From positions 1-64,000 of the forward strand of contig CAMTOV010000002.1 of NCBI GenBank assembly GCA_947074235.1: a stretch of 64,000 bases of DNA, written 5' to 3'. The DNA comes from an uncultured Bacteroides sp. Its GTDB lineage: Bacteria; Bacteroidota; Bacteroidia; Bacteroidales; Bacteroidaceae. The first letter of the stretch is position 1. Each line of letters starts with the position of its first letter. The notes beneath the pieces are model-generated. The model did not search any database and had not been told where the DNA came from. It was given only the letters and a program-made list of their open reading frames with translations. A program made the position numbers and the translations under genes. Below, piece after piece: positions 22,829 to 45,105 of the stretch.

Positions 22829-24250
22829 TTAAAATCTAAAATCTCTTTTTCCTTGCGCAATCTCTTGTAGGTTGCGCTTAGCAATTGTTTTTATTTTCTC
22901 ATTCGGAATTTTCTCTACCTCTTGCTCAATCATATTGATGGCTTTTTGGCGAGTTTCTTCCGATGCATAATCCATCAGATATTCTTTGAGGGTAATGAGT
23001 GAGTTTGGTGCACAACAGTTGGCTATCTGCCCCGATTTAATAAGCGACATAAATCTGTCGCCTGTACGCCCCATTCGGTAGCAAGCCGTGCAGAAGCTAG
23101 GCACATGCCCTAAGTCGAGCAGCCAACTCACAATCTCATCAAGAGTGCGTTGGTCGCTGATATCAAACTGAGCCGAACTTTCACTTTCGGTTGTAGGTTC
23201 AGCATATCCACCTACCGAAGTCTTTGAACCACCACTTATTTGTGATACACCTATCTCGAGCACCTCTTTACGAGATTTCTCCGATTCGCGTGTAGAGATT
23301 ATAATTCCTGTGTAGGGCACTGCAATGCGAGTTACTGCAATGATGCGTTTAAATATCTCATCCGATATAGCATTAGGAAAATCATTGGTATTGATATCAT
23401 CTGCCGGACAGATACGAGGCATGCTAATGGTGTGCGGTCCTACGCCAAAGCGAGCCTCTAGGTGCTCGGCATGCATCAACAACGCTATAAAGTCATACTT
23501 GTAAGTATTCAAACCAAACAATACCCCTATACCTACATCGTCGATACCAGCTTCCATGGCTCTATCCATTGCTTCGGTGTGATAAGCGTAGTCACTCTTT
23601 GGTCCCGTAGGATGCAATCTTTCGTAATTTTCCTTATCGTATGTCTCTTGAAACAAGATATAAGTTCCTATCCCGGCATCCTTCAGCTTGCGATAGTTCT
23701 CAACCGTAGTTGCAGCAATATTCACATTCACTCGGCGGATAGCTCCGTTCTTATGTTTAATGCTGTAGATAGTCTTTATAGAATCGAGTATATAATCGAT
23801 AGGTGCATGTTTGGGGTGTTCGCCCGCTTCAAGAGCCAAACGTTTATGCCCCATATCTTGCAAGGCAATTACCTCTTTGGCAATTTCCTCTTGCGATAGT
23901 TTCTTGCGAGCAATCGTTTTATTCTTAGCATGATAAGGGCAATAAGTGCAACCGTTTACGCAATAATTTGAGAGATACAACGGTGCAAACATCACAATGC
24001 GGTTGCCATAAAAACGCTGTTTTATCTCTCTAGCCAATGCAAAGATACGCTCCACTAAATCGGGCTCTTTGCAAAGAAGCAGTACGGCCGCTTCGCGATG
24101 GTTCAACCCTTTGCACAAAGCCGCTTTGTCAATGATTTGTTCAATCAATGTGCGGTCGTGCTCATGCGCTTTGGCATAAGCCAATGTATCTTCAATCTCA
24201 GAATGGTCGATAAATTCTTCGGCTTTATCTGAATTTACTATATAAGCCAT
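22829..24250 (-). CDS. hydG: [FeFe]-hydrogenase maturation radical SAM enzyme HydG
   Basis: CVNGCTYCPYHAKN radical SAM motif; C-terminal CTACYRMGRTGDRFM. Confidence 0.93.
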   Translation of the reverse strand: MAYIVNSDKAEEFIDHSEIEDTLAYAKAHEHDRTLIEQIIDKAALCKGLNHREAAVLLLCKEPDLVERIFALAREIKQRFYGNRIVMFAPLYLSNYCVNGCTYCPYHAKNKTIARKKLSQEEIAKEVIALQDMGHKRLALEAGEHPKHAPIDYILDSIKTIYSIKHKNGAIRRVNVNIAATTVENYRKLKDAGIGTYILFQETYDKENYERLHPTGPKSDYAYHTEAMDRAMEAGIDDVGIGVLFGLNTYKYDFIALLMHAEHLEARFGVGPHTISMPRICPADDINTNDFPNAISDEIFKRIIAVTRIAVPYTGIIISTRESEKSRKEVLEIGVSQISGGSKTSVGGYAEPTTESESSAQFDISDQRTLDEIVSWLLDLGHVPSFCTACYRMGRTGDRFMSLIKSGQIANCCAPNSLITLKEYLMDYASEETRQKAINMIEQEVEKIPNEKIKTIAKRNLQEIAQGKRDFRF

Positions 24251-24262
24251 AGTTTATATTTA

Positions 24263-25297
24263 TCATTTATAGTCGCCTCGCTCCATAGATATTTCATACC
24301 CAATGGTTTTCAATTGCTCATTGAGTAGGGTCAATCCCTCCGCAGCTTCCGCACCTAGCGAGGCTTTATTATTGTATAGTTCATATTTTTTTCGCGTGTT
24401 GCTAGGCGAAAGATTGGGCATCACTACATTTGCACCTGCTAGTATGCCTTTTAGTCTACCATCTCCACCCAATGAGGCCAGAGCCGTTGTAGATGGAATA
24501 AGCACCTGAGGAAACATCAAACGGAAGATAGAAAGAAGTTTCAATGTCAACTCTACGCTACCCGCAGGATGCTGCGCAAAGGGCGTATCTTGGTGCGGAA
24601 TAAAAGGGCCGAGACCAATCATTTGTGGTTTTAGTTGTTCAATAAACAAGATGTCCTCAATGATGTTATCAATTGTTTGGTGCGGACTGCCAACCATGAT
24701 ACCCGTGCCTGTTTGAAAACCAATCTCTTTGAGCCAACGCAAACATTGTTGCCTATGTTGTGCCGACATCTCTTGTGGATGAAGTTGCTGATAATGGCTC
24801 GATTGATACGTTTCGTGGCGCAACAAATACCTATTGGCACCAGCATCATACAATCGTTCATAATCTTGATAAGACATTTCGCCTAGAGAGAGAGTAATAG
24901 CGCAGTCGGGAAACTCGCTACGTATAGCAGTTACCACCTCTATTACCCAATCTACCGATTGTGCTCTATCTTCGCCGCCTTGCATCACAAATGTGCGGAA
25001 TCCTAGTTTGTATCCCTCACGGCAACAATCAAGAATTTGCTCTTTCGTCAATCTGTATCGCTCTATATGAGTGTTAGACTTACGGATACCGCAATAGTAG
25101 CAATCGTTTTTACAACAATTACTTATTTCAATCAGTCCACGAATATATACTTTATTACCAAATTGAGTCAATGAAACCTCTCTTGCCTGTTGATGCAGAT
25201 AGTCAGTAACCTCTGCATCTTGGCAAGTTAAGAGTTCATGATATGCCTCTGTGGGCAGATGATGCTCATTCCGTAAGCAATCAATCCATATTTTCAT
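24263..25297 (-). CDS. hydE: [FeFe]-hydrogenase maturation radical SAM enzyme HydE
   Basis: ISNCCKNDCYYCGIRKSN radical SAM CxxxCxxC; FVMQGGEDR; adjacent to hydG/hydA. Confidence 0.93.
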   Translation of the reverse strand: MKIWIDCLRNEHHLPTEAYHELLTCQDAEVTDYLHQQAREVSLTQFGNKVYIRGLIEISNCCKNDCYYCGIRKSNTHIERYRLTKEQILDCCREGYKLGFRTFVMQGGEDRAQSVDWVIEVVTAIRSEFPDCAITLSLGEMSYQDYERLYDAGANRYLLRHETYQSSHYQQLHPQEMSAQHRQQCLRWLKEIGFQTGTGIMVGSPHQTIDNIIEDILFIEQLKPQMIGLGPFIPHQDTPFAQHPAGSVELTLKLLSIFRLMFPQVLIPSTTALASLGGDGRLKGILAGANVVMPNLSPSNTRKKYELYNNKASLGAEAAEGLTLLNEQLKTIGYEISMERGDYK

Positions 25298-26747
25298 ACG
25301 AGTCTTTACGCTTAATCAGCTCTTGTGCCAATTGGCGACGACCAGATACAATATCATTGTGAGTACATGGTCCGGTGATACAGCCACCTTCGCAAGCCAT
25401 TACTTCAATAAACTGTCCGGCAGCTTTGCCTGTTTTGGCGCAAGCACGTAGCAAAGCGATGTTCTTTTTATTGATATCCGATATCTGAATTGCATTAATC
25501 TTGTCAGCTTCTTCTTTCAAATAAGCTTTTACAGCGCCCATCACACCACCTGCTTGAGCAAAGCCATGTGCCTCGCGCACTGAGTTAAATACAACAGAAA
25601 ATGGAGTAGATTGTTCTAATTGAATATCCATACCATCGAGTACCGAACCTACTTCTTCGAAAGTAATCATGTAGTCTACTGCACCATCTTTGCGAATCTC
25701 TTTTCGTTTAGCTACGCATGGGCCAACAAATACAATCTTTGCATCGGGGTGTTTCTCCTTAGCTGTGCGCGCAGTATAGTACATTGGCGAACCGGTAGTA
25801 GATACATATGGTTTAAGAGTAGGGATGTGTTTGTCTACCAACTCTACATAAGATGGACAACAAGAAGTAGTCATAAATGCCTGTCCTTCTTCTAACTTTT
25901 CTAGTAATTCGTGCGCTTCGTTTTTGGTAGTATCCATAGCACCTTGAGCCACTTCAATTACATCGGCAAAGCCCAATTCTTTGAAAGCACCATACACTTG
26001 CTCGATGGTTGTTTTAAACTGACCTAAGATAGAAGGTGCAATAATTGCCACCATCTTTTCGCCTTTGCGGATGCCTTCAAGCACATCAAATACTTGCGAT
26101 ATTTCGAAGATAGCGCCAAAAGGACATGCATTGATGCATTTGCCGCAATAGATACATTTCTCTTCGTCAATCTTCTCTATACCATTTTCATCTTTGGTGA
26201 TAGCTTTTACCGGACAGGTTTCTTCGCAAGGTACTGGTATGTAAACAATGGCATGATAAGGACAGCTTTTGTGACAGATGCCACAACTGATACATGCTTC
26301 ATGGTCTATTTTGGCTTGTCCGTTTTTCTTGAAACGAATAGCATCTTTAGGACAATTCATGTAGCAACTGCGTGCTACACAACCACGACAAAGATTGGTG
26401 ATTTCGTAATTTATCTGAATACATGATGAACAAGCTTCATCAATTACACACAGAATATTATCCTTTATTTCGCCTTCTCGGTCTAATGCATCTTTAGCAT
26501 ACTTTGAAAGCGGGTCAAGTTCGTCATGCTCATCAGACATATCCATGCCCAAAAGAGGTAAACATTTGTATTTCCATACGGCGCGTTCTTTATGTACACA
26601 GCAACGGCCCAAAGCTTTCGATTTTCTAGGGGTTAATTCAAGAGGAAGTCGGTCTATTTTTTCAACTAATTCATCCTTTTTCCAGAGTTTTACAAGGTCC
26701 GCTAGTAGTTTATGGCGGACAATCATCACATTATTAGTAAATGCCAT
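25281..26747 (-). CDS. hydA: [FeFe]-hydrogenase catalytic subunit, group B-like
   Basis: H-cluster motifs TTSCCPSYV, VGPCVAKRKE, EVMACEGGCITGPC; N-terminal ferredoxin-type motifs CISCGICHKSCP and CIYCGKCINACP. Confidence 0.9.
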   Translation of the reverse strand: MAFTNNVMIVRHKLLADLVKLWKKDELVEKIDRLPLELTPRKSKALGRCCVHKERAVWKYKCLPLLGMDMSDEHDELDPLSKYAKDALDREGEIKDNILCVIDEACSSCIQINYEITNLCRGCVARSCYMNCPKDAIRFKKNGQAKIDHEACISCGICHKSCPYHAIVYIPVPCEETCPVKAITKDENGIEKIDEEKCIYCGKCINACPFGAIFEISQVFDVLEGIRKGEKMVAIIAPSILGQFKTTIEQVYGAFKELGFADVIEVAQGAMDTTKNEAHELLEKLEEGQAFMTTSCCPSYVELVDKHIPTLKPYVSTTGSPMYYTARTAKEKHPDAKIVFVGPCVAKRKEIRKDGAVDYMITFEEVGSVLDGMDIQLEQSTPFSVVFNSVREAHGFAQAGGVMGAVKAYLKEEADKINAIQISDINKKNIALLRACAKTGKAAGQFIEVMACEGGCITGPCTHNDIVSGRRQLAQELIKRKDSYENMD

Positions 26748-26912: not shown

Positions 26913-27803
26913 ATGAAAAGCGTGGTAGTTGGTATAGGTGAGGCACTTTGGGATATGTTGCCCGAAGGAAAAAAAATAGGTGGTGCTCCGGCCAATTTTG
27001 CTTATCACTCTTCACAATTTGGTTTTGATGGTTGTGCCATTAGTGCTATCGGGAAGGATGCTTTGGGAACGGAAATTATCGAAACCTTTGATAGTAAAAA
27101 TCTTCACTATTTGTTGCCACAAGTCAGCCATCCCACCGGAACGGTTCAAGTTATTATTGATAGTGAGGGTATACCTACCTATGATATTGAGCAAAATGTG
27201 GCTTGGGATTATATGCCTTTTACCCAAGAAATGAGGCAGCTAGCTCTATGTGCGCGTGCAGTTTGTTTTGGATCTTTGGCGCAACGAGGCATAGAGAGTC
27301 GTCATACCATTATGCAATTTGTGAAATCTATCGCCGATGGTGATGGGCAATTTAAGATATTTGATATCAATTTGCGTCAAGAGTTTTATACCAAACAGAT
27401 AATTGAAGATTCGTTGAAATATTGCAATGTGTTGAAAATTAATGATGAGGAATTGATTCTAATTAGTGAAATGTTTGGCCTTCCCGACATTGATATGGAA
27501 GATAAGTGTTGGATATTGTTGGCAAAGTATAATCTGAAAATGGTGATTCTTACTTGTGGGGTGAATGGTAGTTATGTATTTGCTCCAGGCGAAATGTCAT
27601 TTCAAGAAACTCCTCAAGTAATAGTGGCCGACACAGTTGGAGCAGGCGATTCGTTTACTGCAACATTTTGTGCCTCGTTGCTTTATGATAAATCAATAAA
27701 GGATGCACATAAGCTAGCTGTTGAGGTATCAGCTTACGTATGCTCTCAGCATGGCGCTATGCCTATTCTTCCCGCTTCGCTTATTAAGAAAGTGAAATCA
27801 TAG
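26913..27803 (+). CDS. PfkB-family carbohydrate kinase (fructokinase-like)
   Basis: GEALWDMLPEGKKIGGAPANFAYH; DTVGAGDSFTATF anion hole/ATP motif. Confidence 0.88.
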   Translation: MKSVVVGIGEALWDMLPEGKKIGGAPANFAYHSSQFGFDGCAISAIGKDALGTEIIETFDSKNLHYLLPQVSHPTGTVQVIIDSEGIPTYDIEQNVAWDYMPFTQEMRQLALCARAVCFGSLAQRGIESRHTIMQFVKSIADGDGQFKIFDINLRQEFYTKQIIEDSLKYCNVLKINDEELILISEMFGLPDIDMEDKCWILLAKYNLKMVILTCGVNGSYVFAPGEMSFQETPQVIVADTVGAGDSFTATFCASLLYDKSIKDAHKLAVEVSAYVCSQHGAMPILPASLIKKVKS

Positions 27804-27895: not shown

Positions 27896-28084
27896 ATGAC
27901 CATGCGAAAGAAACAGGAGTTGTTGTATCATATGCGTGCCATTATGATTGGTACAATGATGCTTATATCGGGAGTGGTATTTTTATGTTATATGGGTAGT
28001 TCTTTGATTCGGTTTACAAAGAAGTATCAAAAACAGACGATGCAAGTGGCGCAAAAACTACCATGGTCTGACATGGAAGAATAA
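27896..28084 (+). CDS. Small single-pass membrane protein, 62 aa
   Basis: ATG at 27896, one TM segment (AIMIGTMMLISGVVFLCYMGSSLI), preceded by TATCTTTG at 27865. Confidence 0.55.
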   Translation: MTMRKKQELLYHMRAIMIGTMMLISGVVFLCYMGSSLIRFTKKYQKQTMQVAQKLPWSDMEE

Positions 28085-28160: not shown

Positions 28161-28226
28161 GTTTCATTGCAGTGAAACAAATGTTTCGCCTTGATGAAAC
28201 CAAAGTTTCGCCTCAATGAAACTGAC
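28161..28226. repeat. Three tandem 22-bp units, consensus GTTTCgccttgATGAAACcaAa
   Basis: Units at 28161, 28183 and 28205, each with GTTTC ... TGAAAC inverted half-sites. Confidence 0.85.
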
Positions 28227-28236
28227 TAGAATGATA

Positions 28237-28302
28237 TGGCTAAGCTATAATAATGCACTGCCTAATGGATAATAACGTAGTGGCTAATGATTAATCTACA
28301 GA
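28237..28302. repeat. Three tandem 22-bp units, consensus TGgCTAAtgnaTAATnnnnnnnn
   Basis: TGGCTAAGCTATAATAATGCAC, TGCCTAATGGATAATAACGTAG, TGGCTAATGATTAATCTACAGA at 28237/28259/28281. Confidence 0.65.
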
Positions 28303-28513: not shown

Positions 28514-29761
28514 TTAAAAACTAAATGAAGCAACTCCTACAATACGATAGTTGGTTACAGCATTTGTGTCATATACTTTACCGTCGTCTCTTTTTACTGT
28601 GCCATACCAAGCAGTAGTTGCTGTAACTTCAGCACCAAACGACCATGGTCCGTTATTGTATGATAGCTCTACGCCACCTTCGGTTAATTGATCGATATTT
28701 GTTCCTAATCCAACTGTGCGAATGATTCTTTCACTTGTTCCTAGATTTTTCATGTAACCGGCAAAGATTCCGGGTCTCCATTTTTTGCCGTAAACAGCAT
28801 TAATCCAAGTGCTTGAGTTGCGGATAGGGGTGTAGTTCTCTCTACCATTGAGCGAGCTAACTGATGTGACACCATAACCACCCAACATACAAAGCTGCGT
28901 TAGATTCTCGCCAAATATAGATTTTGCAGACACAAGTAGATTGTCTGATTTGTATTGCACATAGGCATCATAAGAGATACCAGTTACACGTGCTTTTGTT
29001 TTATAAGTTCTTTCGGCAGTTACTCCACCAAGATTGTTAGTGATGCTGACTTGTGTTTTGGGCATCATCGACATAAATTCTACGCCTACACCTGCTAACC
29101 ATCCGTTTTTGCGGTAGTTAATACCTACATATACTTCTGGAATGCCACTGTTTTTAAGATAATTGACGCTACGCACGTTGTCTGGTCCGATTGAGGTAAA
29201 CTGTGATTGCCACATTAAAGCTCCTATTGCTTGGAATCCACCAAATGAGTGGCGATAACGAATTTGTGGGGCACGGCTAAAAGGTTGGAATGGTGCACCC
29301 GTAGAGAGGTTTAATACTTTAGGATATACTTCACCAAACATGGGATGCCAAGTTTGTCCTAATAGTAAATCGGCCTTACTCCAATTTAATTGAAAATAAG
29401 CATGACGCATGCGAATAGTATATATATTGGAACCTGCTCCACGAAAATCTCCTTCTACTTTGGCAAATGTAGTTGCATTGCCTAGTTTTGGGCCGGTAAT
29501 ATTGATTCCTAAACGACTAGTTAATACATAGAAATTGCCACTAAAACGCTCGTTCAAATCTCTACCATTGGCATCGAGCTCTTTATCTAATGGGTAAAGG
29601 TAAAATAAACCATCAATCATCTCTTGGCTGGCACGACTATTATAGAAAATATCGGTGCGAACTTGGCCATAAAAATCGATTTTAAACTTCTTTTCTTGTG
29701 CCATAATGTTTAAGGCGCTCAAACAGATAAGCATTGACAACAAGAGGTTTTTCTTTTTCAT
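28514..29761 (-). CDS. Outer membrane beta-barrel (porin-like) protein
   Basis: Signal peptide MKKKNLLLSMLICLSALNIMAQ; amphipathic beta strands, KIDFYGQVRTDIFYNSR, ends VASFSF (C-terminal aromatic). Confidence 0.65.
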   Translation of the reverse strand: MKKKNLLLSMLICLSALNIMAQEKKFKIDFYGQVRTDIFYNSRASQEMIDGLFYLYPLDKELDANGRDLNERFSGNFYVLTSRLGINITGPKLGNATTFAKVEGDFRGAGSNIYTIRMRHAYFQLNWSKADLLLGQTWHPMFGEVYPKVLNLSTGAPFQPFSRAPQIRYRHSFGGFQAIGALMWQSQFTSIGPDNVRSVNYLKNSGIPEVYVGINYRKNGWLAGVGVEFMSMMPKTQVSITNNLGGVTAERTYKTKARVTGISYDAYVQYKSDNLLVSAKSIFGENLTQLCMLGGYGVTSVSSLNGRENYTPIRNSSTWINAVYGKKWRPGIFAGYMKNLGTSERIIRTVGLGTNIDQLTEGGVELSYNNGPWSFGAEVTATTAWYGTVKRDDGKVYDTNAVTNYRIVGVASFSF

Positions 29762-43935: not shown

Positions 43936-45105
43936 TTATAGTAAGAATCCAAGTAGGATACCGGCAGCTACAGCCGAACCGATTACACCTGCTACGTTTG
44001 GACCCATAGCGTGCATCAATAAATAGTTGGTTGGGTCATATTCCAAACCTACTACTTGCGAGATACGCGCTGAATCGGGCACAGCAGATACACCTGCATT
44101 ACCAATAAGTGGGTTAATCTTGTTGTCCTTTCTCAAGAATAAATTGAAGAGCTTAACAAACAATACACCCGATGTTGTAGCAATTACAAATGAGAATGCA
44201 CCCAATGCAAAGATCTTCAATGAATCAGCAGTCAAGAACTCTGATGCTTGAGTAGATGCACCTACAGTTACACCCAATAGGATAGTGATTGTATCGATAA
44301 GCGGACCGCGAGCAGTTTCTGCTAAACGACGTGTTACGCCACTTTCTTTCAATAGATTTCCAAAGAATAGCATACCTAATAGAGGCAAACCAGATGGCAC
44401 CAAGAAAGTTGTAAGCAACATACCAACGATTGGGAAGATTACTTTTTCGGTATGAGATACAACACGAGGAGGTTTCATGCGAATAAGACGCTCCTTGTTT
44501 GTGGTAAGAGCACGCATGATAGGAGGCTGGATTACCGGTACGAGTGCCATATAAGAATAGGCCGATACGGCAATAGCTCCCATTAGGTTAGGTGCGAGCT
44601 TGGAAGATAAGAAGATGGCCGTAGGACCGTCTGCACCACCAATGATACCAATAGCACCCGCTTGCATTGGATTAAAACCAATAGCCAAAGCAATCATATA
44701 TGCACCAAAGATACCGAATTGAGCAGCTGCACCAATCAACATTAACTTAGGATTAGATATCAATGCCGAGAAATCGGTCATTGCACCAATCCCCAGGAAT
44801 ATCAGTGGTGGATACCATCCGGAACTTACCCCGGAATACAAGATATTTAATACAGAACCCTCTTCATAAATACCAATCTTCAATCCGGCATCCATATTGA
44901 AAGGAATATTACCAATCAAAATACCAAATCCGATTGGGATAAGCAACATTGGCTCAAACTCATAAGCTATGGCCAAATAGATGAAAACTAAGCCGATTAC
45001 TATCATGGCAAGGTGTTGCCAAGTAGCATTACAGAAACCTGTATATGTCCAGAAATCAGCTAAGTTATTTCCTAAAAAGCTTGCAAAATCTCCCATATTA
45101 TTCAA
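43936..45105 (-). CDS. Sodium-translocating decarboxylase beta subunit (MmdB/OadB)
   Basis: Multi-pass; GIGAMTDFSALISNPK, GIIGGADGPTAIFLSSKLAP, GNAGVSAVPDSARISQ. Confidence 0.93.
   Translation of the reverse strand: MNNMGDFASFLGNNLADFWTYTGFCNATWQHLAMIVIGLVFIYLAIAYEFEPMLLIPIGFGILIGNIPFNMDAGLKIGIYEEGSVLNILYSGVSSGWYPPLIFLGIGAMTDFSALISNPKLMLIGAAAQFGIFGAYMIALAIGFNPMQAGAIGIIGGADGPTAIFLSSKLAPNLMGAIAVSAYSYMALVPVIQPPIMRALTTNKERLIRMKPPRVVSHTEKVIFPIVGMLLTTFLVPSGLPLLGMLFFGNLLKESGVTRRLAETARGPLIDTITILLGVTVGASTQASEFLTADSLKIFALGAFSFVIATTSGVLFVKLFNLFLRKDNKINPLIGNAGVSAVPDSARISQVVGLEYDPTNYLLMHAMGPNVAGVIGSAVAAGILLGFLL

Follow-up and report, generated by a model that had tools for sequence, protein, structure and literature searches.

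The window analysed here, positions 1 to 64,000 of contig CAMTOV010000002.1 of an uncultured Bacteroides sp. (GenBank assembly GCA_947074235.1, a fragmented draft of 3.1 Mb that is 77.6% complete), carries an array of short tandem palindromes (28161-28287) in a convergent intergenic region. The genes are simple ORF calls, and the functions of those in the window are judged from sequence only. The region is laid out as follows, with strands given for the genes:

26913..27803, plus strand: PfkB-type sugar kinase-like gene
27896..28084, plus strand: ORF of 62 aa resembling a small membrane protein
28161..28178: F1 dyad 1, GTTTC-ATTGCAGT-GAAAC, an exact fit to the dispersed F1 pattern
28183..28200: F1 dyad 2, GTTTC-GCCTTGAT-GAAAC, 22 bp from dyad 1
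28205..28222: F1 dyad 3, GTTTC-GCCTCAAT-GAAAC, 22 bp from dyad 2
28229..28243: F2 site 1, degenerate, GAATGATATGGCTAA, centred 22.5 bp past F1 dyad 3
28251..28265: F2 dyad 2, TAATGCACTGCCTAA, 1 mismatch to TTAnnCAsTGnnTAA
28273..28287: F2 dyad 3, TAACGTAGTGGCTAA, 2 mismatches to TTAnnCAsTGnnTAA
28446..28496: 25-bp inverted repeat, a bidirectional terminator-like hairpin between the array and the porin-like gene
28514..29761, minus strand: porin-like outer-membrane gene, converging on the array

The 62-aa ORF, which follows the kinase-like gene, ends 76 bp before the array, and about 290 bp lie between the array and the stop of the porin-like gene. Orthologs of the latter in four other genomes (G001, G009, G012 and G021; loci L063-L066) are likewise followed downstream by an F1-type array, and the neighbouring gene beyond them is other than in the window. 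Further upstream, HydG-like, HydE-like and iron-only hydrogenase-like genes stand in a row on the minus strand (22829-26747).

A sequence-only reading of the window had described two unrelated sets of tandem triplets that share a 22-bp period and run 10 bp out of phase. All six 22-mers are present at the positions given by that reading, Tandem Repeats Finder (TRF) assigns period 22 to both sets, and each unit of the first set contains an exact GTTTC...GAAAC dyad, as had been claimed. In simulated intergenic regions of the same composition, neither two adjacent GTTTC-N8-GAAAC units nor a pair of F2 dyads at 22 bp occurred (0/20,000 each), and the lag-22 self-similarity of the second set (31/44) was reached in 0/5,000 simulations. 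The period of the second set thus stands; its third unit as originally delimited does not, being an intact right half-site merged with a decayed next unit. At the other end of this set, F2 site 1 keeps an intact right half-site, TGGCTAA, next to a decayed left half (5 mismatches to the consensus). The dyad centres fall at 28169.5, 28191.5, 28213.5, 28236 (the degenerate site), 28258 and 28280, that is, at gaps of 22, 22, 22.5, 22 and 22 bp; the apparent 10-bp offset arose because phase had been taken from the chosen unit starts and not from the dyad centres. The two sets are one continuous composite array of six palindromic sites of two kinds, in register, and the description of the repeats as unrelated has to be dropped, as F1 and F2 are in phase and joined at several loci.

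Both kinds of dyad are dispersed in the source genome, where they were counted by pattern searches and in sampled stretches. The F1 pattern, GTTTC-N8-GAAAC-N4, forms 47 adjacent pairs when matches must be exact and 108 when up to 2 mismatches are allowed (0 for the reversed-pattern control). F2, TTAnnCAsTGnnTAA-N7, occurs at about 20 places with 3 mismatches allowed, and none turned up in 24 further genomes of the genus. A third family, F3 (TGGCAA-N4-TTGCCA-N6), is represented by 22 pairs in the source genome, 55 in G004 and 22 in G022. A fourth, GCCCnnnTAnnnGGGC-N6, yields 51 pairs, all in G014, with a reversed control as high as 20 because the pattern is nearly symmetric. The source genome carries roughly 70 such arrays, that of the window included; the 32 F1 arrays read from end to end comprise 22 of four units, nine of three and one of five. 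Elsewhere in the window there is a single perfect F3 dyad (TGGCAAGGTGTTGCCA, 45006-45021) and a tandem array of period 21 (2256-2317), in which two TTTAACGCGTTAAA-like palindromes lie some 42 bp from each other and may represent another dyad family.

The junction of F1 and F2 recurs at a fixed distance. Of 66 ends of the other arrays in the source genome, 10 have an F2-like dyad (at most 3 mismatches) 22.5 bp past the outermost F1 dyad, 4 of the 10 having at most 2 mismatches where the background is 1 per 9,459 positions; other distances from F1 ends yield no more than one or two scattered cases each. F1 is flanked by TA or TAA, and the array ends of the source genome share the consensus GAAAC-TAA-n-T(G/A)AAAC...TnA, with the core GAAAC-TAA-n-TGAAAC, beyond which no extended sequence is common to the arrays. 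Spacers are polar, T-rich and then A-rich, in a ratio of 12:0 in the source genome and more weakly elsewhere (21:11). Units inside one array are no more alike than units from separate arrays in this genome, and therefore recent tandem amplification is not evident here.

Similar 22-bp arrays, whose absence from this and related genomes the sequence-only reading had named among the observations that would speak against it, are present in both. A sample of 392 genomes from the order yielded exact F1 pairs in no group but this genus and two other families, with up to 62 per genome, and the reversed controls give 0. The distribution is patchy, with carriers that include Bacteroides (finegoldii, faecis, xylanisolvens, pyogenes, oleiciplenus and acidifaciens), Phocaeicola (coprophilus), Mediterranea, Parabacteroides (gordonii, goldsteinii and distasonis), Porphyromonas (uenonis) and Prevotella (jejuni). 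F1 arrays in Chryseobacterium and in a flavobacterial MAG (Flavobacteriia) look genuine, and the F1-like array of a Vampirovibrionales MAG is apparently an unrelated tandem repeat. In most of the Bacteroides genomes sampled F1 arrays are absent, so a putative F1-binding protein would not be essential.

The 22-bp step holds beyond these particular palindromes. An unbiased scan of noncoding DNA (123 kb in 55 stretches from 16 genomes; lags 12-44, with the expectation taken from Markov sequences) returned 22 as the best lag in 29 regions against 0.8 expected, although the matches at G004:C2, G004:C3, G022:C8 and G014:C6 overlap places known from the pattern searches and are not independent of them. 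The other best lags were 21 in 6 regions, 44 in 4 and 23 in 2, with none else above 2. Many of the units repeated at lag 22 are dyads that differ between genomes, for example TTTTGTACAAAA in G003, TGCATAGCGCTATGCA in G004, TGTTGATAACTATCAACA in G207 and CCACGTGG in P. uenonis. When the gap was allowed to vary in a search of four genomes, 65 of the 81 matches listed, which come from two genomes, had neighbours exactly 22 bp apart; interior and spacer measured 8 and 4 bp in 47 of the 81 and 7 and 5 bp in 18, both combinations completing the 22-bp step. P. uenonis mixes GTTTC and GTGCC arms within one array, mostly at 22 bp and sometimes at 23. In the same species, 21-bp-period arrays of TTCsGAA dyads (L212:14550 and L213:2089) lie near the 22-bp CCACGTGG arrays.

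These figures dispose of chance or functionless low-complexity duplication. Tandem repeats do arise easily and the arrays have no annotated function, but the empty simulations and reversed controls, the common period of many unrelated dyads in the lag scan and the constraint on the arms described below refute such an origin, which we regard as exceedingly improbable. A palindrome that varies by species at a constant 22-letter spacing is indicative of a protein-binding or mobile DNA element of a type not yet described.

The genomic placement of the arrays could be taken to suggest a role in RNA. In the source genome they are rare in divergent (promoter) regions (3 of 26, compared with 9 of 17 among control gaps; p=0.005), and in tandem gaps they lie a median of 35 bp after the stop codon; the bias is weaker in other species. 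Palindromes in this position might fold, within the 3′ UTR, into a long rod (or, in DNA, a cruciform) that ends, stabilizes or is processed from the mRNA, with 22 bp corresponding to two turns of A-form RNA. Palindromic symmetry is kept by all families, in the window array the F1 portion folds strongly on either strand (z about -6), and the two ends are mirror-complementary in certain arrays of Parabacteroides and in G014, so that a hairpin role is possible in those lineages. The set-2 part of the window, however, folds no better than chance, the N8 interior has no consistent pairing excess among 441 distinct units, one-sided arm changes outnumber compensated ones by 93 to 2, the array flanks do not pair in the source genome, and intrinsic terminators are not replaced by arrays (8/31 vs 24/96). 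On these counts pairing-based models fit less well, and an RNA or cruciform element appears unlikely. Rfam covariance models had 0 matches in the window, where a tRNA scan likewise found nothing.

The genes next to the arrays, judged by eye from their translations in the source genome and in lineages with few arrays, are unrelated housekeeping genes, and therefore the arrays do not constitute one regulon. No gene recurs beside them, so these translations offer no candidate for a cognate gene.

Selection on the arrays can be read from six orthologous pairs aligned on both flanks, for which the targets were found by similarity of the whole region and the arms, accordingly, were not pre-selected in the target. 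Identity amounts to 178/180 in the arms, 116/144 in the interiors, 36/50 in the spacers and 1050/1137 in the flanks. The arms, changed at 2 of 180 positions, are conserved above the flanks (p=3e-4), whereas interiors and spacers diverge faster than the flanks (p=3e-5 each), an excess that for the interiors may be overstated because the flanks take in some coding DNA. Half-sites under purifying selection around a free centre, the pattern of an operator array, are thus what the arms and interiors display. One arm has switched from GTTTC to GTGCC, the alternative arm type of that species. Several pairs, some of them from Porphyromonas, differ in unit number in steps of exactly 22 or 44 bp, and one of the P. 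gordonii arrays is missing from the locus in P. goldsteinii that matches it. Between L117:1392-1453 and L231, from the same two species, the middle unit appears inverted with its spacers. The common amplification mechanism that the sequence-only reading had also proposed is seen only in part: in the whole-unit copy steps of Porphyromonas, but not among the units within arrays of the source genome.

Changes of this kind are also what a selfish or MITE-like intergenic minisatellite would produce. A transposase or recombination would spread it, it would be tolerated at gene ends, where it is least harmful, its dyads would be recognized by the mobility protein, and the host would draw no function from it. 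Such an element would agree with the patchy, species-specific families, the unit steps and the missing array in closely related species, and the consensus at array ends. The nearest published element found is BrickBuilt of P. gingivalis, a minisatellite/MITE with about 20 intergenic copies per genome, each made of up to 22.8 imperfect 23-nt tandem repeats between a leader and a tail with terminal inverted repeats; its description also notes 22-nt tandem repeats in P. gingivalis W83, locations not given (PMC4596501). BrickBuilt and the arrays described here share their intergenic position, short tandem repeats and occurrence in Bacteroidales, but the unit is 23 nt in the former whereas the latter have mostly 3-4 units of 22 bp, the step that prevails both among the matches listed and in the lag scan; moreover, the arrays consist of dyads, whereas the part of the BrickBuilt description that was consulted mentions none with frozen arms (PMC4596501). 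Nor do the unpaired flanks of the source-genome arrays reveal a leader and tail with terminal inverted repeats. A BrickBuilt-like carrier does exist in P. uenonis (G192), where a multicopy element of 274-341 bp with conserved flanks (L138, L230 and other places) encloses a GTTTC array. Against a selfish origin of the class as a whole, the source-genome arrays lack long common sequence past their ends, no target-site duplication was recognized, and the arms are constrained at orthologous sites, which a dead insertion would not show. A phage or plasmid origin is rejected, given that the 3-unit F1 pattern is absent from IMG/VR and that the window array has no match among phage or plasmid records; viral contigs without arrays also weigh against a selfish element, an explanation we hold to be rather unlikely.

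Other known systems resemble the arrays in part. REP/BIME elements likewise are short intergenic palindromes, often at gene ends, that form species-specific families (PMC3733652, PMC2817692), but the arrays here are contiguous and 22-bp phased, and the GTAG/CGTC tag is absent from the consensus. The RAYT transposase (Y1_Tnp, PF01797) has no match in the 77.6% complete source genome, G001 (B. faecis MAJ27), G004, G009, G014 or G021, with 1 match in G012 (Bacteroides sp. GM023) and 1 over the cut-off in G192 (P. uenonis DSM 23387). Membership in REP/BIME is rejected because the tag is missing and no RAYT domain was found in the first six of these genomes, all array-bearing. The arrays are not CRISPR either: the units abut with a 4-bp spacer, the interiors vary and the flanking genes are, by their sequences, unrelated to cas. 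Plasmid iterons lie near 22 bp apart, and HipB operator sites have the form TATCC-N8-GGATA; tandem operator and iteron arrays place their dyads or repeats roughly two helical turns apart, as do the present ones, and the 5-N8-5 half-site geometry of F1 resembles that of HipB operators. They differ in that the arrays here number dozens per chromosome, lie beside unrelated genes and belong to several dyad families per genome. In the literature searched, which consisted mostly of papers open without subscription, no description of 22-bp phased dyad arrays was found.

The dyads, their constant 22-bp spacing, the in-phase joining of families, the intergenic dispersal and the conservation of arms but not of interiors are established, and the window array belongs to a class found across Bacteroidales. 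The sequence-only reading is partly supported overall: a constraint shared by both sets exists, and helical phasing of a binding protein over two turns, which it had suggested, remains the best reading. Because the palindromic arms are constrained, the centre is free, the two-turn spacing is fixed and different types are mixed in phase, we favour, at about an even chance, arrays of phased binding sites recognized by dimeric, sequence-specific DNA-binding proteins, with the arrays lying between genes and in many cases directly behind a stop codon; the unbiased lag scan counts for these binding sites as well. Each dyad would bind a homodimer, neighbouring dimers would sit on one face of the DNA, 22 bp being two helical turns, and bind cooperatively, and separate dyad families would be read by separate proteins docking in a common lattice. 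The resulting nucleoprotein patch at gene ends might act as a local insulator, a roadblock or a chromosome-organizing site, or might be a mere foothold for the persistence of a selfish element. Against phased binding sites count the lack of a cognate protein among the flanking-gene translations, the absence of F1 arrays from most sampled Bacteroides genomes, the complementary array ends of some Parabacteroides and G014, which suit a long hairpin, and the multicopy element of P. uenonis, which suits a mobile element. B-DNA slightly favours 21 bp over 22, which also counts against them.

Tentatively, the arrays may belong to an architectural system spanning the Bacteroidales, a broader proposal that we find possible but doubtful: a 22-bp lattice would be filled by several interchangeable, fast-diverging dyad alphabets per genome (here F1, F2 and F3), with matching paralogous DNA-binding proteins co-assembling in mixed patches at gene ends, so that the geometry is conserved and the sequence is not. 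Among the major bacteria of the gut are Bacteroides and its relatives, whose intergenic DNA is poorly understood, and a fixed 22-bp spacing with a palindrome free to change between and within species would be an uncommon kind of regulatory or mobile-element code. Should the elements be selfish, they form a widespread class that would be missed by repeat finders tuned to sequence identity. The arrays are ready-made probes for the proteins that read them and bear on gene-end insulation and on the chromosome organization of the phylum.
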